This document shows, piece by piece, positions 9,171-37,261 of a stretch of 64,000 nt of DNA. A program made the position numbers and the translations under genes. Below the pieces are notes generated by a model that worked only from the letters and a program-made list of their open reading frames with translations, was not told the origin of the DNA and made no database searches. Origin of the DNA: Rhizophagus irregularis (Eukaryota; Glomeromycota; Glomeromycetes; Glomerales; Glomeraceae); NCBI RefSeq assembly GCF_026210795.1, contig NC_089437.1, forward strand, positions 3,720,001 to 3,784,000, in the 5' to 3' direction. The first letter of the stretch is position 1; every line of letters begins with the position of its first letter.

Positions 9171-11258
9171 ATGTTATATAAACACATTTTATTATTAATA
9201 TTTATAAACTTAAATGTTATTTCGCTAGTTTATGGTAATAGTAAACCACAATGCACCAAATGTCTTTATAAATGTTGTAATAGTAATTTTGATGATTTGA
9301 AATCATGTAAAAATATATGTGAAACAGACCATTGTGATGGTATAGACATTGATATTGAAGATTATAATTGCCCAATCCCATCAATGGAAGTTTGTCACAA
9401 ATGTCTTAATAAATGTTGTAAAGATTCTGAAGGACATAAAGATTTTCATGATTGTACTGATACTTGCAATTTAAAAGATTGTAAGAATTTAGGATATTAT
9501 TATGAATGTGAGAAATTAGAAATAGTAATAGTTACAACACCACCAATTTGTACTGAATGTCTTACGAAATGTTGTAATGGAAATCCTCATAAATTTGGTG
9601 ATTGTAGTACTACTTGCAGCAAATCAAAAAAGTGTAAGAATATAGACTTTAACCATGAAATCTATAAAGAAAAATGTGGGGGAGGCAACGGTAATAATGA
9701 AGGCAACAACGGTAATAATGAAGGCAACAACGGTAATAATGAAGGCAACAACGGTAATAATGAAGGCAACAACGGTAATAATGAAGGCAACGGCAACAAC
9801 GGTAATAATGAAGGAAACAACGGTAATAATGAAGGCAACAACGGTAATAATGGAGGCAACGGCAACAACGGTAATAATGGAGGCAACGGCAACAACGGTA
9901 ATAATGGAGGCAACGGCAACAACGGTAATAATAAAGGCAACGGCAACAACGGTAATAATGAAGGCAACGGCAACAACGGTAATAATGAAGGCAACGGCAA
10001 CAACGGTAATAATGAAGGCAACGGCAACAACGGTAATAATGAAGGCAACGGCAACAACGGTAATAATGAAGGCAACGGCAACAACGGTAATAATGAAGGC
10101 AACGGCAACAACGGTAATAATGAAGGCAACGGCAACAACGGTAATAATGAAGGCAACGGCAACAACGGTAATATTGAAGGCAACGGCAACAACGGTAATA
10201 ATGAAGGCAACGGCAACAACGGTAATAATGAAGGCAACGGCAACAACGGTAATAATGGAGGCAACGGCAACAACGGTAATAATGGAGGCAACGGCAACAA
10301 CGGTAATAATGGAGGCAACGGCAACAACGGTAATAATGAAGGCAACGGCAACAACGGTAATAATGGAGGCAACGGCAACAACGGTAATAATGAAGGAAAC
10401 AACGGTAATAATGAAGGCAACAACGGTAATAATGAAGGAAACAACGGTAATAATGAAGGCAACAACGGTAATAATGGAGGTCCAGGCCCAGCGACTAAAG
10501 GACCAGGTCCGGGAGGTCCAGGACCAGGACCAGGCCCAGGCCCAGATACGACCAAAGGACCAGGACCAGATCCAGGAGCAAAAGATCCAGGAGCAAAAGA
10601 TCCAGCAGCAAAAGATCCAGCAGCAAAAGATCCAGCAGCAAAAGATCCAGCAGCAAAAGATCCAGCAGCAAAAGATCCAGCAGCAAAAGACCCAGGAGTT
10701 AATCCACTAGCAACTCCAGTAGCACCAACCCCACTATCACCACCTTCTGCTATACCTAAGCCCGAAAATCCATTAGGTCCAGTTCCACCATTCCCACCTC
10801 AAGAAATTACGACTTGTACTACTTCTGATGATCCTGTATGTTCCCCACCAGGATCGTAAGTATACTTTTTATAATAAATTATACAATTTTTTTTTTCCTT
10901 AAAGAGTATTAATAAATATTTTGCAAAATTTAGTACACCAACAGTTGTAACGTATACGCAACCGGGTGTGGAAACACCAACTCCCCTTGGTGATATTGTA
11001 AATTTGGTAACAACACAAATAACATCATCAATATACGTTCCTAGTTATACAACAACAAATTCTTTAGGACAAACCATTATCGCGGAACCATCTATTTTAT
11101 TAGTGATACAAAATATTGCTGTTACTGAAGCTCCTATTACTACTGTGAAGGTTTCGGATTCTACAATCCTACACGACTTTAATAGCCACGGTATATGGGG
11201 TGTTACAATGAGTATAGTTATAGTCACTACAACTTTAATTTTTATGGTTATTACGTAA
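9171..11258 (+). CDS. secreted, probably GPI-anchored Cys-rich protein with Asn/Gly repeat stalk
   Basis: Two exons, 9171..10855 and 10934..11258 (phase-2 intron), encode 669 aa. A signal peptide covers about residues 1-22 (hydrophobic core, then VYGNS). Three Cys-rich domains of about 40 residues follow (C-x2-C-x3-CC-x9-11-C-x3-C-x4-C...C, about residues 27-168). Next comes a stalk of about 270 residues built from GNGNNGNNE/G repeats, then a Pro/Gly-rich part, eight A/G-A-K-D-P repeats, and PVPPFPPQE. The C-terminal module begins TTCTTSDDPVC; exon 2 adds a Thr-rich stretch (YTTTNSLGQ), ILHDFNSHG and a hydrophobic tail of about 20 residues, as expected of a GPI-anchor signal. I infer an extracellular wall or membrane-surface protein. 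Function is unknown; it could be an adhesin-like structural protein or a symbiotic effector. Opposite-strand long frames here are shadows of the repeat. Confidence 0.85.
9679..10480 (+). repeat. 27-bp coding minisatellite (GNGNNGNNE)
   Basis: The unit GGCAACGGCAACAACGGTAA plus TAATGAA (27 bp, 9 codons) is repeated more than 20 times. Shorter 18-bp units (GNNGNNE) lie at both ends. Most differences are GAA/GGA (Glu/Gly), plus single ATT (Ile) and AAA (Lys) variants. Near-identity of units suggests recent expansion or homogenisation, so length variation between isolates is likely. Confidence 0.95.
10577..10693 (+). repeat. 15-bp coding repeat (AAKDP)
   Basis: GCAGCAAAAGATCCA (AAKDP) is repeated, with GGAGCAAAAGATCCA (GAKDP) variants at the start and end; there are about eight units in total. 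It forms the second part of the stalk of the 9171 gene. Confidence 0.9.
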
Positions 11259-13189
11259 AAGAACAAATGCTTAGAAAACGTTTAACTTCTTGTTGCTTAT
11301 TATTTAATAATTTATGTATTCATATAATAAAAATTTTTAAATTTACTTAATAAATGATTTATGTAAATGTGTTTGTTAATAGGTATTTGTCGCTTAAATT
11401 TATTTTTAATACAGATGTATTGAACATTAATTTTTATTTGCTGAAAAATAGATTGAAATCTGTATCTTAAAACATTATAAATCATAATCATGTGTAAATA
11501 ACTGATTATAGAAAGCATTGGTTGATTTTTTTCACATATTTTTTATAACTACCCCAAGAAAAAAATTATATACGCGTGACAATCAGAATTGAAAACAATG
11601 AATTTGGTTACTTTGATATTGGTAAAATGGAAAAACGAAAATTTTTTGAAAATTTTGTAAGTAAATTATTAACGTCTTAATAATAAATAGTAACATGTTA
11701 ATGGCAATAAGAAAGCTAAAGAAAATGGTGAGAGGTAGACGCAGTAGTTCATTATTAAAAGGTATCTAAATGAGCCTAAATGGCCGTAAACTTTTTTGAT
11801 GAGCTACGTGAACCGTGAGGAAGTTTTATAAAGTTAAATTTTATCCTGCTCAAGGTTCTGGAAATTTTCTAAATTTATTAATTACTACTAAATTTATTTC
11901 CTATTCTCCAAATATTAGTCTTTATGGAATTTATTCGCTATGAAAAAAGAGATTTAAAGTAAGATGATACATTTGTATAGAAGATATAATTTCGCAAGAT
12001 CGAATCAATTCACAAAGTCACAACCAACCCATATGACAAAAAAATTGCGCAGCTGTAATTAACCTTCTTAATAAATACTCAACATACTAATCATTTTTTT
12101 TTTCGCATAAATTTTTGGGCTCTAAAACTGACCAAAAACATCCAAAAATTGGGAGCAGAAACGCAAATCAAGTGTAATAGGTGGTGGTTCCTCAATCATC
12201 ATCCACAATTCGACATTATCAGGAAACTCTTTAGGAATTGGTGGCATTGCTGGAAGCTTATTAATTATTTTAAGCCCCTCTTCCACCAAATGCCCAAACA
12301 TCAAATGTTATCTTCAAGTCCCTTTGTTCCCTAATCACAAGAAGTGAAAATGATAAAGAAACAGACAGTGATGGGACTGACACAAGCGAGGTCTAAGAAT
12401 CTTACATTTGATAAATACGTGGATGGTGATGCTGGACGTGCAGATAGTGATGATGATGAAGAGACTCCTAATTATAATTATGATGGGTTAATGCGGAAGC
12501 AATTGAACGAGACAAGCAGGCAAGCAGGTTAATTACTGAAGAAATAAATAAGATGAAAGACAAAATATTCAGTAAGATATCATAAAATATGTCCAGAGAA
12601 CTAATGGAAACTACCTTCTGGAAAGTTTGCAGAAGATATTCTCTATGAATACACACTAAATTTGGAATACGTAATTTAAGCGTAAGATCTTTTCATTGAT
12701 CCTGACAAGCATCACATTAATACATATAATATTCTTCCAGAACCACAATTGGATGATAACTTATTAGACTTTCTTTTATACTACCGACAAGTGAGTATCA
12801 ATTACTATCAATATCTGCGTAGCAATATTAAATCATTGTGACAATTGTGTCCTCTAGAAAAACCCTCAAGGCCTACGTAGGCCAGTATCGATTTACCTTC
12901 TTATGACCCGCCGCAGAGAGATTTCAACTATCACTACATAAATGTAGTTTTATTTTTTTAATATGTATATATATTTGAGAAGGAAAGGCTTACTGCGCCA
13001 AATGTTTGACCGCATATAAATTAATAAAGTTTTGCGGGTTAACCAATCATAATTCATTACATTGCTAATTGCTAATTTCATTTTTTTTATCAAAATTTTT
13101 ATGAGTAATAAAACATATTTTCCTCATAATAATAATTAATACAAGGTAAAACAAGTAAATATCAATTCTTTGCTAAATAATTTAAATAC
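11259..13189. other. intergenic stretch with two open relics
   Basis: Two adjoining open stretches lie here. The first is on the minus strand at 12122-12304 (60 aa: LPAMPPIPKEFPDNVELWMMIEE). The second is on the plus strand at 12344-12532 (62 aa: acidic, GDAGRADSDDDEETPNY). Both have protein-like composition but no spliced gene could be extended from either. They may be fragments of decayed genes. The remainder shows nothing. Confidence 0.35.
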
Positions 13190-14230
13190 GTCCTGGTTAC
13201 TAAAAAAGGAATTTTATTTTTATAGACATTTGTCATTTTATTTTCCAATAAATTTAGTAAAATAATTATTAACCGAAAATTGTAATTCGTAATACTATCG
13301 CACAAATGTTATTGTTTTGTGCTAGTTTTTAAATTACAATGAACTTTCATTTTTAGTAATGTATTTATGTTTTTTTAACAATACGAGTTATTTCCTGAAA
13401 CAAATGTTTATATTATTGTATGACTGTGTGACAAATATTTCGGATTCGGATCTACGAAGAATATTAAGATTTTAAAACTTCAGTAAAACTTCAGTTCGAA
13501 TGTAGTAAAAATAAAATAGGACAATATTGAGCGTAATATATACTATATAATATTTTCTGATCAAAGCGGACTTTATTTTCCGTTTATTGTAAAACTACAA
13601 CCATTATAAACGATATAAACAATACATAATAATTACCGCAAGAAAGAAGAAAAGTTTGAAAGAAGTATCCAATAAATTGTTCTAAGAAAATATAAAGGCA
13701 AAAGATCCGATAAATGATGTTATACCAGTAATTTAAGTAGCTATTTTCTTTTAAAAGCGCGATTAGAAATTGATAAGATGATTATTCTCGGATTCATTTC
13801 TCCGTTCATTTTAATTTCTATTACAAATGAAAAAAAATAGTAGTAAAGTAAAATTTAAAATATCCCAATTTGCATTTTTTTTAAAAAGAACAGACTGTTT
13901 AACGTTCCATTTATAGTAACCCGCAATTGAACGTTACATACTTCCGCCCGCTGTTCACCGAATTCCTTTGTCTCATCCATAATGAACATTCACTCTAATA
14001 TTTTTCTCATAAATCATAATTCAATAAACTCCCCTCTTTCACTTATCTAAATCGTTTAGGTGCAACAGAATTTTACATTCTAGATTATCGGGAGATCCGT
14101 TGCCGTATCATTTGCAAGAATGTTTCATTAAACTTCTTTTAAACATTGAGCGTATTACAACTTTGTAAACTCCAAAAAAATCATTTTTGTGGAAGCAAAG
14201 ATAAAAAAACCGGTTTTATAAAGAAAACGA
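13190..14230. repeat. diverged 5' flank duplication, copy 2 (partner about 7690-8760)
   Basis: Collinear blocks shared with 7690-8760 run through here up to AAAAAACCGGTT at about 14205. Sequence from 14231 to 15715 is otherwise gene-free, except that about 15490-15560 matches about 8925-8990, which extends the homology closer to the gene. The 64-aa minus-strand frame at 15326-15520 has no support. Confidence 0.55.
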
Positions 14231-15715
14231 CACGATAAATATTATAATTCGAGTTAACTATTATTAAACATTATATAAAAAGAAATCCAGTAATAATTAC
14301 ATCATACTTCACGTCCGTTGACCTAACATATAATTATTTTATCAAAAGTTCTTAATCTATTAATTAATAATTAATTTTCAAATCATTTAAATGCGTAAAG
14401 TATTTGATAACTTTTCGAATTATAAATATCATAAATCAATTCATTGTCAAAGCCTAAAACACTTTCACTTACTTTTTGCTGGCTTACATTATGCGATTTT
14501 TATTATTTTAAGGATATAATATAACAATAATGTCACGTGACTTTGTCTTTACATAATCAATAGTAAAAATCTGAAATTTTCGTATTACCTTTGCATTTTA
14601 TCTATAGTCGTACAAAATATTTTATTTGGTAAATTATTGCTTTTTTTCCTTTATGAATAAAATTTTTGTTTTTTAAATGAATGATCATTTTTGGTTTATC
14701 AAATTCTAATTGGGAAATCAAAAATTTGTTACACGTAAAAGTTTGTTGTAACAAAAATTTCTAGAATGTGGCAAGATGGATTATAACAATATTACTACTA
14801 ATTTAATGCATAAAACAATGCTTATATCATACTACGAAAAAAGAACGTTCTTTCTATATTTTAACCACGAATAACCGCGTGGTTTCCTCGCGCTTTTTCT
14901 TTCTCCTAATCATGCAAAGTTATTTACAATAATCAAAAAAAAAAGTATAATACCTAATCTGTGCATTTGTGTGTATAATTCTTAGATAATGATGTCAACT
15001 TAAACATTTAATAAACATTCTTTAGAAATTGTGTGATAAGATAGATAGTCGGATTGTTTCTCCGGATCCAGTCACTTTTTTATTGAGGCGTTAATTATCT
15101 TTTGTCAATTTCCTTCATATGGAAGCATCATTTGTTCTTTCTACTTTTTTTTTGTTTGCGATGAAGTACCCGCAAGAAACTATAAATAGCATTCTTATGT
15201 TAAGGTATGTTAAACAAATGTCCAACTTAAACCACTTAAAATCAAGATCGAGATCGGGGATGATCCGTTGACCAATCACACCGAAAATTCATATTCATTT
15301 GCAAAATGATGATCATGACGCTTAGTTATGAAAAATTCCCTTTTAAAGTAATTAGGCTTATAATTTTATTGTTTCTTAAGATCATCAATAAATATCGGTG
15401 AAAAAGTAAAAAAACTTTTTTGTTTTTTAAAAGTTCTTTACTTTCGTCATCTGTTATGACTTTAAATTTATGATGACGAATTTTTCCCATGATAACTAGA
15501 TTTAAAATTAGTAAAAACAAAAAAAAAGTACCTTTTTAAGTTATATATTTTGTTTTTTTTAATATCAATTAATTCATTAATTTTAAATTGCTTCGTACAA
15601 GTAAAATTTTTTATTAAACATACAAAATGATAAATTTAGATAAATCGGTACTTTACATAATATTAAAATAAATAACAATATCATATTTTATGTAATTCAA
15701 ATTTTCTTCAAATTT

Positions 15716-15742
15716 AATATAAAAATAAGATGTTTTCAGACG
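15716..15742 (+). promoter_or_regulatory. family core promoter, divergent copy
   Basis: AATATAAAAATAAGATGTTT followed by CAGACG lies about 77 nt before the ATG of the 15794 gene. It keeps the TATA-AAG spacing of the family promoter but not the AGTC. Confidence 0.35.
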
Positions 15743-15793
15743 TTCAAAAGAATTCACTAAAGTTTTATAAACTTTTTAAAATAAATATTCAAG

Positions 15794-16772
15794 ATGAAAT
15801 ATAATCAAACTCTTTTATTTTTAATCTTTTTATCAATTACTTTCAATTTTATATTGCCAATTTATGGAAATAGTAAACAAGAATGTGAAAAATGTCTCGA
15901 TAAATGTTGTAATAATTATAAAAATAATCATCAATTAGAAACTTGTAATGATAATTGCAAATTGGAACATTGTGATGGCGTAAAAATCAATTATAAAAAT
16001 CATGAATGCACTAAACCAGTAGATCCTCCTACTTCTACTCCTAAATCTGAACCCCCTGAACCTAAAACCCCTGATCCTCCTAAAACAAGTCCTCCTCCTA
16101 TAGATACTGATCAACCACTTAACCCAACATCCGTTCCACCAGTTCCACCTACTACACCTATTCCCGATCCACCCGTTCCACCCACTACACCTATTCCACC
16201 CGTTCCACCCACTACACCTATTCCACCCGTTCCACCTACTACACCTATTCCACCCGTTCCAATTCAATCTCCAACTAATTCATTAGGTCCAGTTCCACCA
16301 TTTCCACCTCAAGAAGTTCATACTTGCACTACTTCTAATGATCCTGCATGTTTCCCACCAGGATCGTAAGTACATGTGTTTTAATAATTTAATTCGTTTT
16401 TCTTTGAGAGTAATAATGATTAATTATTTTACAAAATTTAGTACTCCAGTAGTTACAACATTTACGCAACCAGGTGTGGAGACACCAACACCACCTAGTG
16501 GCAATGAAGTATTAACAACAACACAATCAACATCTACGTTGTATGTCGCTGGTTATACAACGACAAACTCTCTAGGACAACCTATTATCGTACCTCCATC
16601 CAGCTTATTAGTGGTGAATGAAGTTGCTATTGTTACTAAAGCTTCTGTCGAGACTGTGATGGTGGCTTCGGACTCTACAATTTTACATGATCTTAATAGT
16701 CATGGCTTATGGGGTATCACAATGAGTTTATTTATAGCCATTACAACTATAGTTTTCATGGTTATTGCGTAA
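15794..16772 (+). CDS. secreted, probably GPI-anchored Cys-rich protein with Pro-rich stalk
   Basis: Exons 15794..16365 and 16442..16772 (phase-2 intron at the same codon as in the 9171 gene) give 300 aa. A signal peptide ends near LPIYGNS. There is one Cys-rich domain (ECEKCLDKCC ... HEC, about residues 29-72). The stalk is TPIPPVPPT repeats in place of the Asn/Gly repeat. The conserved module follows: SLGPVPPFPPQE, TCTTSNDPACFPPGS, then exon 2 with QPGVETPTPP, GYTTTNSLGQP, ILHDLNSHGLWGITMS and a hydrophobic tail. It is the closest relative of 9171 in the window; the 5' flanks are also homologous. Role unknown; surface location inferred. Confidence 0.85.
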
Positions 16773-17721
16773 AAGAATACGTAAAGAACGCATTATTATT
16801 TTAAATGTATTTATTTTTTATTATCAGTATTTAATATCACTTTGTTATGAATACATAAATAAAGTTTCAAATAATATTTTTATCGTATCCTAAAGAACCA
16901 AATAAATTTGCCCCAGTTTTTTTGTACTCTATATTGAAGCGTCTAAGAAAAAATAAAAGTGAGCGAAAAGAATTTATAAAAATGATCTCTCATCCCTAAA
17001 AGATATTAGTAATTTAACAAATATAACAAACATATCAGTCAAATTTCCAATAACAAAGATATTTTTCTTTTTGGTTGATAAGGATACTTATTCACACAAA
17101 AGTAATATTTTTTTTTGCATATTTCTGTTTCGTTAGATTAACTAGAAATGAAAGCTAGAATAAGAAAGGTTTGTTAAAGATATACTTTATCAGTTTGAAA
17201 TGAAATGCCAATGTCACAAGTGAAGAATTCGTGTTTTAGCCTCGACGGTGCAAAAATTTTTATTATTCCGACCATCGTCACCACAGCCAAACATCTTGAC
17301 TAGTCGATCGTATCATTCAAATGACGAACTAAATATTAAATTAATATATCAAACTTAAAAATTATCGCAAAATACAACAATGCAGAAAAACATATCGATA
17401 TATAATACTTCTTTAGTATTAATAAATGAAACGCAAAAGTGAACTTAAAAAACATGTTTCTATTCAAGTCTTGGATTTAAATAAATCGTTCAAGTTGTTT
17501 AAATTTCGTAAATATAGAGTAGAATTTTAATTGATATTTTTATTACTTTCCAATGATAAATAAACAAAAAGTCCCTGAAAATGATTTCTAGAATTTTCAA
17601 TAAATTTTTTTTATAAAACCTTATATCATGATATAAAGATACTCGATAAAAATTTATTTTCGTTCTTCATTAATCACGAGAAAAAAAAAAGAATCATCAA
17701 ATAAATACGATAATTCGCATT
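16773..17721. other. intergenic, nothing recognised
   Basis: This lies between two convergent genes. It is AT-rich and contains no protein-like frame. A slightly GC-richer block at about 17235-17330 (CCTCGACGG ... CGACCATCGTCACCACAGCC) has no identified coding potential. Confidence 0.45.
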
Positions 17722-19506
17722 TCATTCCCATTTAATCAAGAATAGATCCTTATCACTAATATTCCTAAATTCTTTTATCGTGATGCCTTTTTCTTCCGAC
17801 CATCCTCTGACAAATTCCTCATATTCTGCAAATTTGTCAAAACCATTAGAATTCCTAACAACCAATAATTTCAAATTAACCGCACAATTTTCTAAAAAAT
17901 ATCGAAATTCAGAAACATATCTAATTAAACCATAAAGTCCTAAACAAAGGAGACGCCCGGGTAATTTCTTTGCCAAATTAATGATAAAATCATCTTTGAT
18001 AGTATATGTTTCTGAAATGTAACAAAAATTAAGCAATTCTAGTTTTGAACAATTTTCTAGGATAATGAAAAGATTTTTTATATCCTGTTCCGTGATAACA
18101 TATGTAGAGAAGAAGGCAAGATTTCTACAATTTTCCCCAACAGATCTCAAAAGATTAAAATTATTCATGAACGGATTTTGTAAAAGAATTTCATTTAAAC
18201 TAGAAGATATTTTTTTATTTTGAAAAATTTTTTCGAATGGGTTAATTTTCATGACAGACAATTCTTCATTACTTTGATTGTTAATTAACTTTAAACATCC
18301 CAATTTTGATAAATCTGCTGAAGAAATCCATTCAATATTCTTTAATGTAATGTATGAATCTTCTAAATATAAAGATTCTAAATTTTCACATCTGATTAAA
18401 AATTTGAATGCTTCCTCGTTCCTCACACATATCTTTAAAAATTCAATTTTTTTAAGCGTACCAGCTACCGTTTCTAATGATGACATGATTTCAAATACGC
18501 CTTCATCATAATAATCGTCCCTTGAATTATCATCTCCAATAATTCTAATATGTTCGAGTTGATGTTGATTTTTGATTAAAGACGTTAATGGTTTCTGAAT
18601 ATTAGGTAAATCATGTTCTTCAATTTGAATCGTTTTTAAAGATTTGCAAGTATTTGATAAAATTCTCAAAACATTTAACTTTGAAAATATGCGACCATAA
18701 TTTAAATATTCCAATCTTGTAAAACAATTCTTCGTTACATCCATCTTCAAATGATATTTAAGACAATCCTCAATCCTAAAGATTGTATTATAAAATCTTG
18801 TGACCTTTAATATATCAACGTGTTCTTCATCAGAGTCAAAATTTTCTTCAGAATCATCACCACCCCAATTATCATCATCATTATTGGTATTGAGAAATCT
18901 TCTAACATCCTTATATCTCAAATCAATTTTCAGCCATATAATATTAGCCCTTCTAGTTGCAATAATTCTTAAAATTGTTAAAATATAACTTAAAATCTTA
19001 TCTAGTTTAGAAGGTTCTAATATAGGTGAAGATTCTTGGCTTTCGGATTGTTCCGCTTGTCTTTTTTTTTCTATTTTCCAAACATCAAATACTTCTTTAT
19101 ATATAATGAAAAATTCTGTAACAACACTAAAAAGATTTTGAAAATCCAGATGTGTAACAAAACTAGGATAATCAAACATAGCATGTTTTGGTAAAGCAAA
19201 ATCTTCCACCACCTTTTCCCGTGAATCATCATTTATTAAATTTTCATCATCATCATTTTCGTCTAATAAAAATTTTCTCAAGTGTTTACCTAAATCCTTG
19301 TCCTTTTCAATAAAAGGTAAAAATCTAAAAATGATCTCTATTTGATTATTCAACTTGATATCATTCCGGAATGGTTTTTTATATAAAAATTTGATGGAAT
19401 TTTGACTCCAAGCATGATTTACTTGAATAATCGAATATAATGATTTGATATCTTCTACGTAACTAAATATATGTTGTAAAGTTTCATTTGGTAATCTTGA
19501 CGCCAT
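17722..19506 (-). CDS. F-box protein with leucine-rich repeats
   Basis: One uninterrupted exon of 594 aa. The N-terminus (LPNETLQHIFSYVEDIKSLY...VNHAWS, about residues 4-45) is a typical fungal F-box, which would bind Skp1 in an SCF ubiquitin ligase. The middle is acidic and variable (DDDEN, DDDNWGGDDSEEN). The rest, about residues 230-560, carries irregular leucine-rich segments (CENLESLYLEDSYITL; LKLINNQSNEE), which would be the substrate-binding part. Such single-exon F-box/LRR genes are hugely expanded in Rhizophagus. The substrate cannot be predicted. It is isolated, with no partner gene nearby. Confidence 0.85.
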   Translation of the reverse strand: MASRLPNETLQHIFSYVEDIKSLYSIIQVNHAWSQNSIKFLYKKPFRNDIKLNNQIEIIFRFLPFIEKDKDLGKHLRKFLLDENDDDENLINDDSREKVVEDFALPKHAMFDYPSFVTHLDFQNLFSVVTEFFIIYKEVFDVWKIEKKRQAEQSESQESSPILEPSKLDKILSYILTILRIIATRRANIIWLKIDLRYKDVRRFLNTNNDDDNWGGDDSEENFDSDEEHVDILKVTRFYNTIFRIEDCLKYHLKMDVTKNCFTRLEYLNYGRIFSKLNVLRILSNTCKSLKTIQIEEHDLPNIQKPLTSLIKNQHQLEHIRIIGDDNSRDDYYDEGVFEIMSSLETVAGTLKKIEFLKICVRNEEAFKFLIRCENLESLYLEDSYITLKNIEWISSADLSKLGCLKLINNQSNEELSVMKINPFEKIFQNKKISSSLNEILLQNPFMNNFNLLRSVGENCRNLAFFSTYVITEQDIKNLFIILENCSKLELLNFCYISETYTIKDDFIINLAKKLPGRLLCLGLYGLIRYVSEFRYFLENCAVNLKLLVVRNSNGFDKFAEYEEFVRGWSEEKGITIKEFRNISDKDLFLIKWE

Positions 19507-25461: not shown

Positions 25462-25483
25462 GTATATAAATAAGTCTAAAACG
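25462..25483 (+). promoter_or_regulatory. family core promoter (TATA plus AGTC)
   Basis: GTATATAAATAAGTCTAAAA then CG lies about 70 nt before the ATG of the 25534 gene. It is nearly identical to the motif before the 35976 gene. Confidence 0.6.
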
Positions 25484-25533
25484 TTATTATCAAATCTCAT
25501 TAAAAATTTTCGAAAAATTTAAAATTATTTAAT

Positions 25534-26749
25534 ATGACACATAATGGACTTGGATATAAATATATATTTATATTAATATTAATAATATTAACATTAATTA
25601 CAACGTCACCAACTTATTGCTCTCTTCAAAAGAGGCAGGCACCAGAACCGGTGATAGATCCAAAAAATCCACCACCACCACCTGGTCCTTGTAAAGACTG
25701 TGCTGACAACTGTTGTGCAAGTTACAGAACTTGTTTGAATGATCCAAATTCTAATCCTACTTCATGCAATGATGCGTCAAAAAATTGTAATATCAATTGC
25801 AACGCGGGAGGATGCAAAGGTATAACTTATTATCTAAATTGCAATAACCCAGAACCAACACCTATACCAAAAAATCCACCACCTCCTCCGGGACCAGCAC
25901 CTAGTACACCTAAAGTAAATCCAAAAAATCCACAACCACCTCCAGGACCAGCACCTAGTACACCTAAAGAACCTGTGAAAAATCCAAAAAATCCACAACC
26001 ACCTCCAGGACCAACACCTAGTACACCTGAAGAACCTGTGTTAAATCCAAATAATCCACCTCCTCCTCCTGGTCCTTGTTTGGACTGTATTATCAAATGT
26101 TGTGCACCTTATTCAAGTTGTATACAAGGCACCAATTCTAATCTTAATCTATGCGAAGATGCATTAAAAAAATGTAATATTGATTGCAACGTGGGAGATT
26201 GCAAAGATGTAGATAATTTTTATTACGATTGTAACTCGCCCAAAACTGTGCCATCTAGTTCTATTAAACCGCCAGTAAAAACACCTATAATTACTTGCTC
26301 CTCCTCTAGTGATCCTAAATGTTTTCCACCAGGAATGTAAGTTTTATTTCTTTTATCATTTTTTTTTTTATTTTCTTTGAAAATATTAAAAAAATGAAAT
26401 ACAAATTTGCAGTGCTCCAATAATTACTACTATTACAAAGGAAGGAGTAGAAACACCAACACAAGTCCCTAATAACGTAAAATTGACAACAACCATAACA
26501 ACACTTACATCATATTTTGCTGGGTACACAACAACTAACTCTCTGGGATCGTCTACATCCATCCTTCCATCCACTCTATACATAGTGAAGAGTATTGCAA
26601 TTACTGAACCTACTGAACCCGCAAATAATAATACAGTTGCTTCAGATTGTACTACAATTTTGTACAATTTTAATATCTATGGTTTATGGGATGTTACATT
26701 AAGTTTAGCTGTAATCATTGCAACATTTATTTTTATGATATTGGCATAA
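25534..26749 (+). CDS. secreted, probably GPI-anchored Cys-rich protein with two domains
   Basis: Exons 25534..26336 and 26413..26749 (phase-2 intron) give 379 aa. A signal peptide ends near SPTYCSLQKRQ, where KR could be a Kex2 site. Two Cys-rich domains (PCKDCADNCC...YYLNC and PCLDCIIKCC...FYYDC) are separated by a stalk of NPPPPPGPAPSTP repeats. This subtype has extra Cys residues compared with 9171 and 15794 and closely resembles the minus-strand gene ending at 32916. The C-terminal module is present: TCSSSSDPKCFPPG, EGVETPT, AGYTTTNSLGS, ILYNFNIYGLWDVTLS and a hydrophobic tail. Here the NSHG motif is changed to NIYG, so the predicted anchor site may differ. Function unknown. Confidence 0.85.
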
Positions 26750-28444: not shown

Positions 28445-28698
28445 GATTATAGAGCCATTTGTTTTTATCAGCCATTTGCTAACCCAAACCGTATTATTAT
28501 CACTTGGTCTTGGCAATATACTATACCAAATATAGTATCCTGTTTTTGGTGTAGTTTACTTTGTAAATACATCATCTATTTATCATCTATTTATTTTTTA
28601 ATGAAATCATCCATTAGTTATCACAAAATTAGAAATTTAATTCTTAAATGAATGAATTTCTTTATCTAAATCGTGGCAGTACATTTTTGAAAAAAAAT

Positions 28699-28720
28699 GT
28701 ATATAAGCAGGACAAATCCG
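28699..28720 (+). promoter_or_regulatory. family core promoter, variant
   Basis: GTATATAAGCAGGACAAATC then CG lies about 126 nt before the ATG of the 28826 gene. The match to the family motif is good, but it is farther from the start because of an expanded 5' leader with repeated ATTTTAAAAA units (about 28760-28812). Confidence 0.5.
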
Positions 28721-28825
28721 CACACTAACAACCGATATAAAGTTTTAAAAAAACAAAAAAATTATTCAATTTTAAAAATTATTCAATTTTAAAAACTTTT
28801 CAATTTTAAAAACAAATTATTCAAC

Positions 28826-29137
28826 ATGTTCCTTCTTGGATCTAAATACAATTTTGTGCTCGTATTTTTAATGATGGTGTTGGTTTTAACTTCACCAACT
28901 TATAGCATTCCGCAAGGAGGTATTAACAAATTTATCGCTTATTTAATCCCATTTCCTGCAAAAAAAAAAAATCATACAACATTGATTGAATATGGGAAAT
29001 AATGCATAACATTTATACTAACGTCGATTCTCCGATTAAAAACATTAGATCCTGATACTCCTCCAACTCCTCCTCCTCCTGGTGGTCCCACACCACCTGG
29101 CAACAGTACTGATGTTCCTCCTACTGCTACTCCTTAA
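28826..29137 (+). CDS. short secreted Pro-rich peptide, truncated family member
   Basis: Exons 28826..28919 and 29049..29137 (phase 1) encode only 60 aa. The first about 28 residues are a signal peptide ending SPTYSIPQG, very like the start of the 25534 gene (SPTYCSLQ). The mature part of about 30 residues is Pro/Gly/Thr (PPTPPPPGGPTPPG), with no cysteine and no C-terminal anchor module. The family promoter is retained. It may be a degenerate paralog that still makes a small secreted peptide, or a pseudogene. Intron borders (GGTATT...ATTAG) are acceptable but unproven. Confidence 0.55.
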
Positions 29138-29641
29138 ACGTTGATTCACTTACACGACAACTCTATCTACTTGATATGTGATGAATATTTCCGTTACTGA
29201 ATCTATTGGTCACATATTATACGATAATTTTATATGATATTATAATGCTTATGCGAATTTTTTTATTATATAATAAAGTTTTATCAAATTTCTTTATAAA
29301 TTAACAAAAAAAAAAATTATTGTTGGAAATGAGCCTTTCAGTGTTATTGCCTATTACTAACGATCATCAAAACTTTTGTTTCGCGATATTACATATACAG
29401 TACATAACTTATTATCCCACTTTTTGACGTTGTCACTCGTAAAATCTAATTGATAATGCGTGTAATCTACAGCCAATCATTCAGACATTTGATTCAATTA
29501 TAAAAATAATGATTTTCTTTATTAAAGAACAATGCACTAAATATTTTAATACTTTAAGGATGCCATTTATATTAAAAATTTTAAATTTTAGCTAACCAAA
29601 TTTTTTAATTATAATTGTAACAAGTTTTACATGTCAGTGAT
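29138..29641. other. intergenic, nothing recognised
   Basis: AT-rich sequence downstream of the short secreted-peptide gene, with no supported feature. Confidence 0.4.
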
Positions 29642-30107
29642 TTAACAATTATTATCACGATTAAAACATAGTAAATAAGCAGATTGGCATTCCTTGAAGA
29701 TATTATGAACGCGATCGCATCCGTAGTATACGGTTTGGAAATTATTACAACTGAAGGTAAAAGTACTGGTTGGCATACAAGTTTTCTTTACTGAATACGA
29801 ATGAGGAATTGGGGATTCGATGTAGTTTAAAGCTATACATGAATTATTTTTAACCATTCGAATAATCCAATCAAAATTTCTAATTAATTCATTCATAAAA
29901 TTAGATTCTCTAATAAATGAATTATTAAATTAGTTAATATACTAGTTAATATTGATCCGTAATCTTCTTTTTTTAAATTCAATAAATTATTAAGTTCATG
30001 GAACGATCATCTTCGCAAATTTTAAGAATATCATTTTCTTTTAAGAATTGAATTTGCATTATCCATTCATCAGGATGAATATTTCCATCATATTTTGAAA
30101 GTTTCAT
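29642..30107 (-). pseudogene. remnant of a Rhizophagus multigene family (KYDGNIHPDEWI type)
   Basis: Two separate short pieces are visible on the minus strand. One (30107..29979, 42 aa) contains KYDGNIHPDEWI. The other (29896..29642, 84 aa) begins MNELIRNFD and ends in a Cys-rich tail. Both resemble parts of a large Glomeromycotina protein family that I remember as having a gag-like N-terminal region, sometimes followed by a MIR-like domain. The copy is broken and lacks most of the usual length. I treat it as a fossil and do not model a protein. Confidence 0.4.
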
Positions 30108-31163
30108 TATTCTTTTATTTCTTTTTCTTTATATATATATACAGTATATATATTTTTATTCTTTATATATATATATTTTTTTATTCTTTTTATTTTTATT
30201 TTTTTATTTTTTTTTATTACTGAAAATTCGTTCACTTAATAACCAACCCAAACAGATATCCTAACTTTGTTACTGGTAAAGTCTGCTAGTTTTAAAGGAG
30301 GATTTTGTGTTTTTTGATGTATAATTAATTCAATTATTTCTGATTGCAACTATTGCAACTCTAAAGTAATTAAATTTTTTAGTTGATACATCATAATAGT
30401 GTCCAATAATAAGTCAAGATGAGTTGGGTGCCCTGAGCTATTCTACTTCCACCATACTTTTTAATTATTTAAAGTAATAAAAGTTTTCCTATTTTTTTTT
30501 TTTAATCTAATAAATTTTTGTATTTATTCCACTCATGGTGCATTTGAATTCCTACTATTGAAAGTGGTTTGTCAATACACGCAAATTGTGTAATAGGCGG
30601 ACGGAGTCATGATATGCAAAAGTGAGTACAAAATATAGAGAGTCATGATTCTAGTTCATGTGGACATCGTTTAAATTTTGATGGTGGAACTTCGTGAAAA
30701 AAATTTAATAATGTATAAAAATTTTTTTTTGATATTTTTTTTTTAGATAAATTTAAATAAAAATTTAATAGAAAACACAACTTAAACTAATAAAAGAAAA
30801 TTACACAGATTACAGAAATCATAAGAGTTAGACATTTTGTTCTTTTATCAAAAATAATTTTTATTTCATGTTTTGAATGAAGAATTTTATAAAATAATAT
30901 CATGAAAAAATTTTTTACTATGATAAAGAGGTTCTAACTAAAAATTGATCATTCTTTAATGAAAAATAATTAAGAAAGATAATAACCAAGGTACGTGATC
31001 AATAAATTGCATAATACGAGATTAAAATCTTATATTAATATGAACGCATGGTAAACTTTTACTAAACTCTTTTTTAATTATTTTTCGCCCATTTCCTTTT
31101 TACAAGGATCCCATACTCCTTTAAAGAAAATTTGTAGGTTTACCTAAAGAATTTATTTTTATA
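30108..31163. other. intergenic, nothing recognised
   Basis: T-rich runs and (TA)n at about 30130-30175. A 10-bp word GAGTCATGAT occurs at about 30604 and 30640. No gene is supported. Confidence 0.4.
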
Positions 31164-32718
31164 CCCAGTAAAAAGTCATCATATGGAAATTGTACAATTT
31201 TTGTTTAGTTTTTGTAATTATTGTCCAATTTTCATTCAGTATTCGTATAGTTAAATCAAATTTTATTTTTTTGTAAAATTTAAATGTACAATTATTGTAA
31301 GATTTATTACATTTAATAAACAGAAATTGTACAATTTTTATATTTTAACTTTGCAACTATTATTTATTATATTCATTTAAACAAAATTCGTACAATTTTT
31401 TCAATTTTTAAATTCATATGAAACTTATAAATTTGTACTAATTTGTAGCATAAATCTGTAATTAATTATAATTATATTGATCTTCAGACTATTTTTGTAA
31501 TGATTTTCGCGTTATAAAAATATGTATCACGTGTATGTCAGTATGTGATGATATAATCCGCAGTTCGATGACTTCGATCAACTTTTTTCTTTTAAACTTT
31601 TTTTTCCTTTTAAACTTTTTTTTTCTTTTTAAACTTTTTTTTCTTTTTAAACTTTTTTCTTTTAACTTTTTTTTCTTTTTAAACTTTTTTTTTGCTTTTT
31701 TTTCACATTCTTCCCTTTTCCTTCAGTTCGTTCGCCCTTTCACTTCCCTTTGTACCTTCCTTCGTCTCTCCCTCGTTCTTTCCTTTTCCTTTCCTCCCTT
31801 TTCCCTTTACTTTTACATTTCCTTCTCTTTTTTTTCCCACTTTTCTCGCACTTTTTGTTGAAGAAATCTTAAGCATTTCTCTCCTTTGGTGCAAATTTCT
31901 GGTAAGTTCATTTTTTTTTTTAATTGTTTAATTTTAATGAACAATTCTAATAGTTGTTTTTCTTACTTTTTTTTTAGACTTCGAATATTTGGACGTGGGA
32001 ATAATGGTAGGAAATTTTTTTTCTTAAATCTTAATTATCTATTTTAACAAATTTTTCTTTTTTTTTTTAGATGCTTCTTACGGTCTTCTTGGACGTGGAA
32101 TTTTGGCGTAACAATTTGGTAGGGTAGAGGTTTTTTTTGAATTATTCTTTGATAAAACGTTTATTTAACAAAATGTTTTCTAACACTTTGATTTTTCTTC
32201 TTTTAGGCAGTTCTTCAGCTCTTTGGACAAGGACTTTAGTGGGAGTATTATTTTTTTAGTTTCTTTTAAAAATAGTGGTTACTTATTTCTTTCTCTTTTT
32301 TAGACGGCTTTTTGGTCTCCTGGATGTGACATTTCACAAATTTTCAAATTCTTCCTTTAATATTAACAAACAGATATCAATAGTTCTTTTCTTTATAGAT
32401 ATTTCTTCAAATCTCTTTGGATGCCGTTATAGTAAGTTTTTTTTTCGTCTTAGTTTATTTATTATGATGAAATGCATATATATACAGTAATTCATATATG
32501 AATAATAAATCAAACATGTAAAAATAATATACAAATTTATTTTGAATGTTACATAAAAACATTGCAAGTTTGTGACGAATTTACTTTGAATTCTATATAA
32601 AACATTACAAGTTTACTACAAATTGTTTACAAATACTGTACAAATGGATGCTCATAATCGTATTAAATTTGTAACTTACATTTTTTATACAAAAAATCAA
32701 CATAAACTTTTTACTGGG
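31164..32718. mobile_element. TIR-bounded element (CCCAGTAAAAAGT ends) carrying an exon-like cassette array
   Basis: The left end CCCAGTAAAAAGT (31164) is matched by ACTTTTTACTGGG (to 32718), and ATA flanks both ends (a possible 3-bp duplication). Both subterminal regions, about 300 and 240 bp, are crowded with TTTGTA/TACAAA words, as in elements whose transposase binds subterminal repeats. There is no transposase frame. The core (about 31580-32460) has a strongly pyrimidine-rich block with repeats of about 20 bp (CTTTTTTTTTCTTTTTAAA), then the cassette array. Superfamily unassigned. The open frames at 31535-31931 are low-complexity artefacts. Confidence 0.6.
31978..32432 (+). repeat. five diverged exon-like cassettes separated by intron-like spacers
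   Basis: Cassettes start at 31978, 32071, 32207, 32304 and 32399. Each is preceded by a polypyrimidine tract ending in TAG, and several are followed by GTAGG or GTAAG. They share a core of the form TTCTT...CTCTTTGGACGTGG.ATTT (examples: TCTTCTTGGACGTGGAATTT, CAGCTCTTTGGACAAGGAC). No long protein frame joins them. They could be duplicated exons of a non-coding transcript or a decayed gene. Confidence 0.5.
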
Positions 32719-32915
32719 ATATTATTGATAAATGCTAGTGTTGAAACTATCAGTGCACTCACGCACTATATACAATAACTTTTAATATTTAAAGAAAATA
32801 TAAAAAAAGATTAATTATAAATGTGTTATGCTTCATATTTGGTGGTGTCGTTTGCTGAAGGATTATCGTTATTTGTTGAGAGTTATTGCTGTCATTGTTA
32901 TCTCTTTTGAATCTT

Positions 32916-33605
32916 TCACATTACATTGTTTCCTTTTGGTGGTTGTTGTGAATTCGAGCCTTGTGAACCTGCTGGGTCTTTTTGTGAGCCTGGATCTTGC
33001 GGACTTGGGCCTTTTTGTGGGCCTGGATCTTGCGGACTTGGACCTTTTTGTGGTGGTGCTGAAGGTTCTGGATCAAAGCAATCAAAATGATAGGTCATAT
33101 TTTTGCAACCTTTCATAACGCAATCAAGATTACATTGTTTTAATCCATCTGAACACAGACTAGGATTTGGCCCATTTATGCAAGTTATAAAAGCCGCGCA
33201 ACATTTGTCAATACAATTTTTACAAGGACCAGGTGGTGGTGGTGGTGCTAAAGGTCCTGGATCATCTACTACAGGACCTGGACCTTTTTGTGGAAAGCAA
33301 TCAAAATGATAGGTCATATTTTTGCAACCTTTCATATTGCAATCAAGATTACATTGTTTTAATCCATCTGAACACAGACTAGGATTTGGCCCATTTATGC
33401 AAGTTATAAGAGCCGCGCAACATTTGTCAATACAATTTTTACAAGGACCAGGTGGTGGTGGTGGTGCTAAAGGTCCTGGATCATCTACTACAGGACCTGG
33501 ACTTTTTTGTCTCTCTTGAAGAGTACAATAGGTTGATAATGTTGTAATTAATATCAGCATTATAAATATCAGTAAATTTCTACATTTAAATCCAAGATAA
33601 ATCAT
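32916..33605 (-). CDS. secreted Cys-rich protein with two near-identical domains, no anchor module
   Basis: A single exon of 229 aa. I use the ATG at 33605; the frame stays open upstream but without an ATG. A signal peptide ends near TYCTLQERQ. Two Cys-rich domains (PCKNCIDKCCAALITC... and PCKNCIDKCCAAFITC...) each follow a GPVVDDPGPLAPPPPPGP linker; the whole 73-aa block is a direct 219-bp repeat. The C-terminus is Pro/Gln/Gly-rich (QKGPSPQDPGP) and stops without the Thr-rich/GPI module found in the 25534 and 35976 genes, so this protein is probably freely secreted. It is divergent from, and head to head with, the 35976 gene. Confidence 0.8.
   Translation of the reverse strand: MIYLGFKCRNLLIFIMLILITTLSTYCTLQERQKSPGPVVDDPGPLAPPPPPGPCKNCIDKCCAALITCINGPNPSLCSDGLKQCNLDCNMKGCKNMTYHFDCFPQKGPGPVVDDPGPLAPPPPPGPCKNCIDKCCAAFITCINGPNPSLCSDGLKQCNLDCVMKGCKNMTYHFDCFDPEPSAPPQKGPSPQDPGPQKGPSPQDPGSQKDPAGSQGSNSQQPPKGNNVM
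33078..33515 (-). repeat. direct 219-bp intragenic duplication
   Basis: Two adjacent copies (33078-33296 and 33297-33515) differ at only a few positions, and both encode linker plus one Cys-rich domain. This is a recent in-frame domain duplication. Confidence 0.9.
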
Positions 33606-33649
33606 ATTAAACAATTTTAAGTTTTTCGAAATTTAAAATTTGTTATTAA

Positions 33650-33676
33650 TGTGTTTTTGACTAGTTTATATATATA
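33650..33676 (-). promoter_or_regulatory. family core promoter (minus strand)
   Basis: Read on the minus strand, TATATATATAAACTAGTCAA then AAAC lies about 70 nt before the ATG at 33605. This is the same spacing as at 25534 and 35976. Confidence 0.55.
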
Positions 33677-34239
33677 TTTTCACATTTATATAATTATGTT
33701 ATTTATAATTAATAAGTAAACAATTCTACTTGTTTAAATGTTATTTAAATTACTGCTAATTGCAAAGCAATTTTTTTTTAAAAAAAAAAATTCATTCATT
33801 TAAGTGAATTTTTCACTAGTTTTTGAATTTTAGAAAATTCTCACACAAACTAAATCACAACGAAAATGGGAGGTAGAGGGCATTTATTATAATTATGCAC
33901 AAGAATCAACAAAGGAAATTTCATAAATCAACCTAGATAATCAAAATGTCTAATGCAATTTGGGTTTAGTGTGTGATAAAATAAAATTGTGTATGGTGTG
34001 TGTTACCTATAAACCAGTTTATAAGCGAGTAAGGTGTATCATCATCAATATACCCGTTTAATCTGAAGTTAAAAATGGGTTAAACTCTATTTCCAATTGT
34101 ATGTATTTTTTATTATTTACTTATGTTCTACATTTTAACTGCAATCTTTATTTTCTGGGCATTATCAATTGTTGAGTTTGATAAGAATATTTTTAATAGT
34201 GAAAGTACAATTTAGGTAATTGAATAATGCGGAGAACGA

Positions 34240-34720
34240 GTTATTTGAATTTCTCATATCGGGTCGTCCATTTATTCTATTTAATCGATCACATGATTGC
34301 GGCAATGGAGGTCTAGAACAGAATGTGAGATTACATGGCCACAGAAACCTTATCTGAATGTTTAGAATGAAGAACAGTTTAAATCCAATTTATCTCAAAT
34401 GAGAAACAAAAAAAAGGAAATAAGTAAAACTATTTTAATTTATTTATAAGTGTGGGAACTGAAAAAAAATCCATGATCGATTATCTTTTTATACAAATCA
34501 GGACTTCATTTACTGTTGTAGTAAACTCAAAAAACCAAAGATTTCGCTGCGCCAAAAATGATCGTTGATTTATGAAAAATTTTTCTTTGTGGGTGATACA
34601 CCTTAACGATTAACGTACCTTCTGCTTTTGCTTCTTGCGTTGTTTACTTCATATTTTAAAAATTAAATTTCACCATCATCTGTTTATGGAGCTTATTTAG
34701 TGTGAAATTTAATGTAATCA
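34240..34720 (+). repeat. diverged direct duplication, copy 1
   Basis: It shares collinear words with 35355-35830: AATTTCTCA.ATCGGG, ATGAGAAACAAAA, GGGAACTGAAAAAAAA, TCGATTATCT, ATGATCGTTGATTTATGAAAA. It ends where a gene start would be expected by analogy with copy 2, but no gene follows. Confidence 0.7.
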
Positions 34721-34825
34721 TTAAAATAAATGATTATTGACACAACATTTGTATAACGATAAACAGTACATACAGTACATCTTACTGACGATCATCGCAA
34801 CTTTATTTTAATTCAAATTTACCAC

Positions 34826-34950
34826 CGCGTATCTCCACCATCACCAAGGAAGTTCCGCAAATGAGCGGCTCGAGCGGCCGGAAATTGAGTCGGGACCAAG
34901 AATTGGTTCAGTTCTCTAAAACGGAATAAGTCTGTCCTGCTCGCTTCTTT
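34826..34950. other. GC-rich island of unknown nature
   Basis: This stretch (CCACCGCGTATCTCCACC ... GAGCGGCTCGAGCGGCCGG ... GTCGGGACC) is much GC-richer than its surroundings. The minus strand has an open stretch reading FRELNQFLVPTQFPAARAAH then LRNFLGDGGDTRW. It could be a transferred or retroposed fragment. No family recognised. Confidence 0.4.
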
Positions 34951-35354
34951 AAATGAATATATAATTCTGGTTACAACTTTATATATAGTATACGTAGAAT
35001 AAGAAAAAATATATTTCGTACTTCATTATATTTATACAAGAAATCGAATTTACAAGTGAAAAGATAAAATTGCGGATTTTGTCAATTAAATTGGTAATAT
35101 TCGTAAAAGTTGGAACCGGAAAAAAAACCCTTAAACGGTTTATTTTAACGCGTTTAGACTTATTTCTCCTATCTGAATATTTAATAATCTAAAAATTTTG
35201 TATTAAATAACTTAAAGTATAAAATTGGTCGTTCTTAAAATATTTTCCTAAAAAAAAAAAAATATTTCTTTGTTTGCTAATATTGACTGGATGCCAATTT
35301 TTAGAATTTATAAAAGAGATTATAATAATCAACTCCAAAGAAAAAATATAATGT

Positions 35355-35830
35355 CAAATTTCTCAAATCGGGACATCATTTAATCGTTCAAATATTTGTT
35401 GTGACAAAAAAGATTAAAAGAAAACTTCTATCTAAATGTTGATTAACTTATTTTGAATGAATTCAATTTATCCTATATGAGAAACAAAATAAGGAAATCA
35501 TAAGTACATTTAAATTAAAAAGAAATGAGGGGAACTGAAAAAAAAAATCGATTATCTCTTCACAAAAACAGAACTTCATTTAACGGCGATCTACGTAGAA
35601 AATCCAAAAACCGTATTAAGGCTGATTATTGGCAGATTCACAATACCAAATATGATCGTTGATTTATGAAAATTTCCCTTTGTGTACCTTTTCTCTTTTT
35701 GATTAGATATTCAATGAACAAACATTCTTTTTTTTAGAAGATGTTTAAAGTTTCTAATATTATATTTAAAAGATTAATTATTTCCACCATTATCTATTTA
35801 TATTTTAATGAAACTTTTTAGTGTAGTAAT
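35355..35830 (+). repeat. diverged direct duplication, copy 2 (upstream of the 35976 gene)
   Basis: Partner of 34240-34720; it ends about 80 bp before the TATA motif of the 35976 gene, so the block is part of that gene's 5' region. Confidence 0.7.
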
Positions 35831-35907
35831 TTTTTTTTTGCTTGTGGTTAACTGGTAACACACAAATAAATTTAATGCGTAATTTAAGATCTTATCAATT
35901 TTAAAAT

Positions 35908-35929
35908 GTATATAAACAAGTCAAACTCG
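35908..35929 (+). promoter_or_regulatory. family core promoter (TATA plus AGTC)
   Basis: GTATATAAACAAGTCAAACT then CG lies about 67 nt before the ATG of the 35976 gene. Confidence 0.6.
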
Positions 35930-35975
35930 AATCAATAATAAATCTCAAGTTTAAAAAACTTAAAAACTATTTAAT

Positions 35976-37261
35976 ATGGCTTATTTTGGATTTAAGCATA
36001 AACACGTACTCATATTCATAATACTGATATTATTTACAACATCATCAACCAATTGCAGTTTTCAAAAGAGACAGGGTTCTTGTAATGACTGTATTAATAA
36101 GTTTTGTGCTTGCTCTTTCAACGGCGGCGGTCAATGTGGAACAATACTTAACGAATGCAATTTATATTGTGGAAAAATAGGTACTATTAAATGTACAGCA
36201 ACATCTATAGAGACTATAAATTTACCTCCTACACCTACACCTACTCCAAAAACTCCACCACCAAAAGCACCACCAAAAGTACCAACAAAAGTACCAACAA
36301 AAGTACCACCAAAAGTACCAACAAAGGTACCAACAAAAGTACCACCAAAAGTACCACCAAAAGTACCACCAAAAGTACCACCAAAAGTACCACCAAAAGT
36401 ACCACCAAAAGTACCACCAAAAGTACCACCAAAAGTACCACCAAAAGTACCACCAAAAGTACCACCAAAAGTACCACCAAAAGTACCACCAAAAGTACCA
36501 CCAAAAGTACCACCAAAAATGCCACCAAAAGGTGCACCACCAAAAGAACCAAAAGGCGCACCACCAAAAGAACCAAAAGGTGCACCAACAAATGAACCAC
36601 CAAAAGGTGCACCACCAAAAGTACCACCAAAAGGTGCACCACAAAAAGAACCACCAAAAGGTGCACCACCAAAAGCACCACCAAAAGAACCACCAAAAGT
36701 ACCACCACCTGCACCTCCACCAAAAGAACTACCACCACCAATACCAAAAGCTCCACCACCATTAGGTGTAACGCCAACGCCAACCATCCCTGCTAAAACA
36801 ACACCTACTACTTGTACCTCTGGAGATGATCCTAAATGCTTTCCATCAAACATGTAAGTATTAAACATTTACTATAATAATAACCATTTTATTCTTTTTT
36901 TTCCTTCAAAATATTAAATTAATTTATCAATTATAGTGTTCCGATAGTTACAACATATACAGAATCAGGTGTAGAAACACCAACACCAGTTCCTGAAAAC
37001 GCAAAATTGACAACAATCGAAACAACACTTACATCATACTTTGCTGGTTATTCAACAATAAATTCCTTAGGTATACCTACATTCGTCCCTCCATCCACTC
37101 TATATGTAGTGAAGAGTATTGCCGTTACTGAAGCTCCTACCAATACTATAGTTTCAGATTCTACGACAATTTTACATGATATTAATAGTCATGGTTTATG
37201 GGGTGTTACTATGAGTTTATCCGTAATAACTGCAACTTTCATTTTTATGATGATTGCGTAA
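35976..37261 (+). CDS. secreted, probably GPI-anchored protein with KVPP repeat stalk
   Basis: Exons 35976..36853 and 36937..37261 (phase-2 intron at the family position) give 400 aa. A signal peptide ends near TNCSFQKRQ, with KR a possible Kex2 site. One shortened Cys-rich domain (SCNDCINKFCACSF...TIKC) has lost the CC pair (now FCAC). The stalk is a 12-bp KVPP/KVPT repeat (about 36270-36520), then GAPPKEP variants, so it is basic and proline-rich. The C-terminal module is well conserved: TCTSGDDPKCFPSN, ESGVETPTP, YFAGYSTINSLGIP, ILHDINSHGLWGVTMS and a hydrophobic tail. I infer a wall-anchored protein. Other long frames over the repeat are shadows. Confidence 0.85.
36262..36525 (+). repeat. 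12-bp coding repeat (KVPP)
   Basis: GTACCACCAAAA is repeated about 20 times, almost without change after the first few ACA variants (KVPT). The uniformity points to recent slippage expansion. Confidence 0.95.

Follow-up and report, generated by a model that had tools for sequence, protein, structure and literature searches.

A modular family of probable membrane-tethered surface proteins with changing repeat stalks in arbuscular mycorrhizal fungi

Little is known about the surface proteins of arbuscular mycorrhizal fungi. The AGL proteins (RiAGL1-5) combine conserved endoplasmic reticulum (ER) and glycosylphosphatidylinositol (GPI) signals with fast-changing repeats, and to the knowledge of Schultz et al. 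(2022; PMC8786786) no other GPI-anchored protein of these fungi had then been described. The Flo/Epa adhesins of yeast possess an N-terminal head, a repeat stalk with length polymorphism and a GPI-type end (PMC8621652), Kex2-processed repeat proteins (KEPs) possess a secretory leader, a Lys-Arg (KR) site and repeats (PMC6339444), and variable tandem repeats are also present in GPI-anchored wall proteins, likened here by description only, such as SsGSR1 of Sclerotinia (PMC10269696) and Ssr1 of Candida albicans (PMC5491155). The stretch of 64,000 nucleotides analysed here (the window; Rhizophagus irregularis NC_089437.1, contig C9, 3720001-3784000) carries a gene cluster of a further family, which probably consists of surface proteins of arbuscular mycorrhizal fungi, GPI-anchored or otherwise tethered to the membrane at the C-terminus, whose stalks turn over in place. 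An initial annotation had proposed a modular, probably GPI-anchored surface family in which the stalks change and the ends stay, and the sequence comparisons below support this; the logic is already displayed by the AGL proteins of these fungi (PMC8786786). No published description of the family was recognised in searches of open-licence literature, and one may exist elsewhere.

Four window genes, G1, G2, G3 and G5, consist of a long exon 1 and a short exon 2 that encodes a common C-terminal module, the anchor. Exon 1 encodes a leader, one to three Cys-rich domains, a repeat stalk and a C-x7-C pair followed by FPPG or SPPG (FPSN in G5). In G1 (9171-11258, plus strand), exon 1 (9171..10855) comprises three domains of 8 Cys each (9246..9680), an Asn/Gly 9-mer array, and GPGP and AAKDP arrays before the Cys pair; the main stalk array (9702..10463) contains a 27-bp unit repeated 30 times with 92% matches, the second (AAKDP, 10568..10695) a 15-bp unit repeated 8.5 times. 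A phase 2 intron of 78 nt (10856..10933) separates it from exon 2 (10934..11258), which encodes the anchor with its hydrophobic end. G2 (15794-16772, plus) has one 8-Cys domain and a TPIPPVPPT stalk (27-bp unit, 4.5 copies) in exon 1 (15794..16365), an intron of 76 nt (16366..16441; phase 2 by reading) and the anchor in exon 2 (16442..16772). The leader of G3 (25534-26749, plus) ends in LQKRQ, and its exon 1 (25534..26336) continues with two 10-Cys domains that enclose a PPPPGPAPSTP stalk (63-bp unit, about 2.9 copies); a phase 2 intron of 76 nt (26337..26412) and the anchor exon (26413..26749) follow. G5 (35976-37261, plus) is built of exon 1 (35976..36853; leader ending in FQKRQ, one diverged 8-Cys domain, KVPP stalk), a phase 2 intron of 83 nt (36854..36936) and exon 2 (36937..37261); its stalk array (36257..36707) counts 36.6 copies of a 12-bp unit. 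The stalk types listed in the initial annotation are borne out.

Codons 36959-37258 of G5, searched against all six frames of the genome (146.7 Mb, 32 contigs), match 13 places, including G3 (E 2.6e-33), G2 (3.1e-27) and G1 (1.1e-24). This similarity greatly exceeds chance and confirms the four genes with a common C-terminal module; the module is not "nearly invariant", as had been stated, since G1, G2 and G3 share 51-67% identity with G5. The anchor of C12b as query adds C12:4894054 (C12d) and a weak match at C26:618949 (E 0.01), a gene whose reading shows the family plan except for the Cys pair; two further weak rows have E values of 0.38 and 0.66. The genome thus encodes at least 15 anchor-bearing genes on seven contigs (C9 and C12, four each; C14, three; C1, C18, C26 and C31), the counts of the genome searches being lower bounds. 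Fourteen of them were modelled through, while C14a, with an interrupted exon 1 and perhaps in need of a further intron, was left out of the models. The intron directly precedes the anchor in all 14 models; it is in phase 2 and 69-88 nt long in the ten genes for which it was computed, and in phase 2 by reading in G2, C12d, C18 and C26. The C-x7-C pair is present before the anchor in 12 of the 14 models and, by reading, in C14a. Both the spread over seven contigs and the Cys pair just before the intron extend the family beyond what had been noted. Eight of the 15 genes (on C12, C14 and C18) are no more than about 400 kb away from a contig end and seven are further off, although the contigs may not be whole chromosomes.

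Protein searches, which reach only proteins sharing words with the query and within its length range and which in part scored only the roughly 8000 candidates with most shared words, returned 23 proteins (P0001-P0023). The 14 that bear a species name all come from Glomeromycotina (R. irregularis, R. diaphanus, R. clarus, 'Glomus cerebriforme', Funneliformis geosporum and Cetraspora pellucida). The exon join assumed for the window genes recurs in the database gene models, which are not transcripts: that of G1 is identical in P0005 and P0006 (R. irregularis), that of G2 in P0002 (R. irregularis) and P0003 (R. diaphanus) and that of G3 in P0010 (R. diaphanus), and the same join is found in P0009 (R. 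cerebriforme). The protein from Cetraspora (Gigasporaceae) has a leader, KKRQ, a QAP-type stalk of its own and an anchor; searched against this genome, it gives a best E value of 6.1e-10, and nine of its ten rows are family anchors, the tenth being a C24 stretch with E 0.09. In P0008 (RhiirA4_452559; window 12340-12532), a G1-like anchor is joined to a downstream frame and the hydrophobic tail is lost, probably through an annotation error.

The stalks, which with their Cys domains range from 16 residues (C31) to 753, vary widely in their units. These include PKDP, APKDGG, NPNDPNNPKQ, GGDGGKAP, GGDNGGGPK, PPSPPPPKTP, PPEKPPEK, PKDAPKDA and others; many stalks are rich in Pro or Gly, others also in Asn, Lys, Asp or Glu. 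Their description as entirely different is a little too strong, because a Pro-Lys core is common to many of them. Across the 14 modelled genes, leader identity correlates with anchor identity (Mantel rho 0.50, P about 0.001, 2000 permutations), whereas stalk similarity, measured in Cys-bearing genes downstream of the last Cys that precedes the anchor pair (only 21 residues in G3), is unrelated to the anchor for 4-mers, 3-mers and composition (rho -0.04, -0.14 and -0.14; P 0.56 or more). In nine such stalk-anchor tests, including runs without C31 or without C31 and C1, rho ranges from -0.15 to 0.02 (P at least 0.41), and stalk 3-mers are likewise unrelated to the leader. Leader and anchor are therefore inherited together while the stalk changes beneath them. 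No sign of leader or anchor shuffling between genes was seen with trees that are weak for that question.

Stalk turnover is evident in the genes that could be compared closely. G5 and the C1 copy stem from a young duplication that extends past the gene on both sides (dS 0.078 over 107 anchor codons and 0.108 over 33 leader codons). The long matching blocks cover 1816 aligned bases at 84.9% on one side and 1064 at 71.8% on the other, and leave unmatched about 510-570 bases in C1 and about 150 in G5, the range depending on the choice among overlapping repeat matches. The unmatched part of C1 is a PPxPPPPKTP array (residues 51-257 of a 378-residue stalk) that has no 8-mer in common with G5. The database alleles of G1, P0005 and P0006, show 100% identity to it over 171 and 139 flanking residues, their stalks having 140 and 171 residues versus 359 in G1, and the GPGP block is missing from P0006. 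G2 and P0002 are also 100% identical outside the stalk (75 and 137 residues) and differ by small stalk changes only. The G2 stalk is 91% identical in R. diaphanus (78 aligned residues, 12 gapped columns), with head and tail at 93% each; for P0004 the values are 62% for the stalk and 89% and 96% for the ends, and for P0007 57%, 81% and 82%, the "tail" in these two consisting of 28 residues, as both stop before the anchor. As the G2 stalk is nearly as conserved in R. diaphanus as the ends, stalks seem to be remodelled in situ as repeats are gained and lost; the interchangeable stalks of the initial annotation find no counterpart, as no exchange between genes was seen.

The anchor is under constraint in most pairs (dN/dS 0.23-0.40 in six of seven). 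For the stalks, selection for diversity itself and neutral drift of a spacer are about equally likely. Under neutral drift, any spacer make-up would suffice and the diversity would be unselected, which is compatible with tethered surface proteins and comes fairly close to an even chance: stalk similarity tracks neither leader nor anchor, C31 manages with its very short stalk, and the G2 stalk is well conserved in R. diaphanus. Open frames maintained over stalks as long as 753 residues and a strong composition bias speak against it, but even then the exact sequence could be neutral.

After the split codon, the anchors of the window genes have 107-111 residues with a hydrophobic run at the end. 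In all 14 models the hydrophobic stretch is flush with the C-terminus, and the last 20 residues have a mean hydropathy of 1.78-2.48; in 12 of the 14 they are free of charge. A hydrophobic stretch flush with the C-terminus is the usual layout of a GPI signal. The AlphaFold model of the anchor predicts a few beta strands and then a helix at the C-terminus (residues 87-108 of 109), and its final two blocks have pLDDT 91 and 95. The module has no credible match in Pfam or among PDB sequences. The same helix, as modelled, would be long enough to span a membrane, and the proteins might instead be type I transmembrane proteins with nearly no cytosolic tail and no GPI; the short polar KNVD end of the Cetraspora protein and the single charge within the last 20 residues of each of G3 and C12d would fit such a topology, which is nevertheless unlikely given the position of the hydrophobic stretch in all 14 models.

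At the other end, the leader closes with KR in 12 of the 14 models, followed by Gln in 11 and Ala in one, and a second KRQ is visible in C14a. This site raises the prospect of secreted precursors, from which Kex2 and other proteases would release peptides or the stalk, with the hydrophobic C-terminus as no more than a temporary tether; R. irregularis has been reported to be rich in Kex2-processed repeat proteins (PMC6339444). In line with this, three genes with the same leader lack an anchor within 5 kb. Two of them, on C11 near 809124 (L055, minus strand) and on C25 (L057), end in ...TDHCKDG..RKRDEIPDG.CGAWFF..., with a second KR and then a short peptide that is possibly released by Kex2; the other C11 gene (L056, minus) ends differently. 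All three possess LQKRQ and a stalk, and the C25 leader holds an internal TGA stop. However, KEPs bear Kex2 sites between their repeats (PMC6339444), whereas no KR occurs in any stalk or anchor of the 14 models; together with the dN/dS values of the anchor and its retention in at least 15 genes, this makes free precursors rather improbable. A further frame of 139 residues at C22:2511457 (L054) combines the leader, KRQ and a GGDGGPG stalk, and no anchor was seen in 4.6 kb.

The closest described system is the AGL/IDP family, which follows the same logic: its members are secreted, predicted to be GPI-anchored and encoded by clustered genes, with conserved ends, species-specific disordered tandem repeats and a mature N-terminal Gln (PMC8786786). 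According to that source, AGLs have fewer than 200 residues, versus 207 to 1035 in the 14 models here; the single AGL intron adjoins the ER-signal cleavage site in Rhizophagus, whereas here the intron stands directly before the C-terminal module; and the AGL tail is short, in contrast to an anchor of 100 residues. The APADGK motif led to three AGL-like frames within 9.9 kb of C7, which are taken for AGLs because in layout they resemble the published locus of four genes in 10.7 kb (PMC8786786). These three genes lack KR after the hydrophobic core, the Cys pair and the anchor module of 100 residues. Membership of the present genes in the AGL/IDP family, despite the common logic, like repeats (PADGK also in the C12a stalk), clustering and mature Gln (PMC8786786), is highly improbable, as the C7 genes have a signal peptide of 22-24 residues ending in AAQ, with the frame stopping there as the published intron implies, and tails such as GNTLKSSGVSFAAIAVLGAIFA, and hhalign gives a probability of 0.1 for one of them against the anchor alignment A3. 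By the features compared, the genes are not AGLs. About 20 kb from the AGL-like genes (C7:4838.4-4840.3 kb, L073), a frame of 642 residues in which APADGK repeats precede a probable transmembrane segment and an extended tail was read by eye as AGL-type repeats on a receptor-like protein.

Cys-rich domains are borne, one to three each, by the five window genes for which they had been claimed (G1-G5). They occur in only 5 of the 15 anchor-bearing genes (G1, G2, G3, G5 and C1, whose diverged domain was recognised by reading) and constitute an optional head, not the fixed part they had been taken for. Eleven were counted, each with 8 or 10 Cys: nine in the window, two of them in G4, and those of C1 and P0009. 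The predicted structure is a two-helix hairpin (pLDDT 74), in which the cysteines may form disulfides; the nine domains searched have no credible match in Pfam (E up to 0.1) and none among PDB sequences. G4 (32916..33605, minus) encodes a leader with QERQ where others have KRQ, two 10-Cys domains and a KGPSPQDPG stalk. Its 219-bp tandem duplication (33075..33510, minus; 98% matches) doubles one linker and Cys domain, which illustrates directly how the number of domains can change. No anchor exon was found for G4: compared with G5 exon 2, the next 400 bases downstream reach a score of 34 (shuffles average 31 and peak at 50), and 61 once the intron joins the query, the latter figure having no shuffled baseline. 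At C14:4000428 (minus; L058), a broken G4-like domain (E 3.2e-8) has one early Cys replaced by Tyr and is probably a pseudogene; the second row of the searches outside the window is a weak C19 stretch (E 0.18) with stops inside. Unlike the Flo/Epa adhesins, 10 of the 15 family members lack a Cys head, and the stalks are mostly rich in Pro, Gly, Asn, Lys and Asp, whereas flocculin repeats are rich in Ser and Thr. Pfam scans of eight window pieces (E up to 1) and of the nine Cys domains (same threshold as above) show neither PA14 nor GLEYA nor Flo11, and those of the anchors do not show the flocculin repeat PF00624; a genome search for PF00624 was empty, as were its 14 controls.

Membrane-tethered surface proteins are the preferred explanation because leader and KR fit secretion and trimming, the tail fits a GPI signal and the structure model ends in a helix. 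The leader would direct the chain into the secretory pathway, and in most members trimming at the Kex2-like KR|Q site would leave an N-terminal glutamine. The terminal hydrophobic helix of the anchor would be exchanged for a GPI anchor, tying the protein to membrane or wall, and the stalk would form a long, presumably disordered spacer of low complexity, rich in Pro, Gly and Asn and weakly constrained in sequence. Slippage or unequal exchange may rebuild it in place as short DNA repeats are gained, lost and homogenised, with both ends held by selection; the surface coat could therefore change fast in length, charge and chemistry. In one clade, the window cluster and the C1 copy, small Cys-stapled helical domains would sit as heads on the stalk.

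Several observations weigh against this explanation. C18 and C26 have no Cys pair; KR is missing from the leader end in G1, in G2 and in P0009, the relative from R. cerebriforme; and the KNVD end in Cetraspora is less typical of a GPI signal. The overall confidence of the anchor model is low (mean pLDDT 67, pTM 0.26), and the anchor dN/dS of G5/C1 is 0.84, with few changes underlying it. A cruder run that kept the Cys domains in the stalk gave Pearson correlations of 0.23 between stalk and anchor and 0.36 between stalk and leader (Spearman -0.01 for stalk and anchor), and the stalk-length differences between assemblies may in part be collapsed repeats.

The family provides a second candidate set of surface proteins with conserved modules of its own, searchable in other genomes, which could shape the encounters of these fungi with plants, with the soil and with one another. 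Stalk differences between strains, if confirmed by long reads, could serve as strain markers, and the role of isolate-specific coats in compatibility or soil behaviour would become testable. A system of surface variation throughout Glomeromycotina, with fixed secretion and anchor cassettes, a stalk rebuilt per gene, strain and species, Cys heads in one clade and an isolate-specific coat used for partner or self recognition (anastomosis, plant interface), is a doubtful and largely speculative extension.

The six genes with a common signal type and promoter that the initial annotation listed can be followed in part. The sixth (28826..29002, plus), a guess at the gene meant, encodes a signal sequence only, followed by a possible intron and a short Pro-rich end to about 29136 (splice placed by eye). 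Among 17 upstream stretches, a TATATAA box stands 67-71 bases before the ATG in G1, G3, G4, G5, the C1 copy and C14a. In G2 the box is TATAAAA at 76 bases, and the sixth gene has boxes at 126 and 90, so that a promoter common to all six was overstated. No TATA-type box was found within 150 bases upstream of C12a, C12b, C18 and C31, and the remaining five stretches have boxes at other distances. An F-box-like gene (window 17722-19506, minus) and a C2H2 zinc-finger gene (37848-38807, minus) lie within or beside the cluster.

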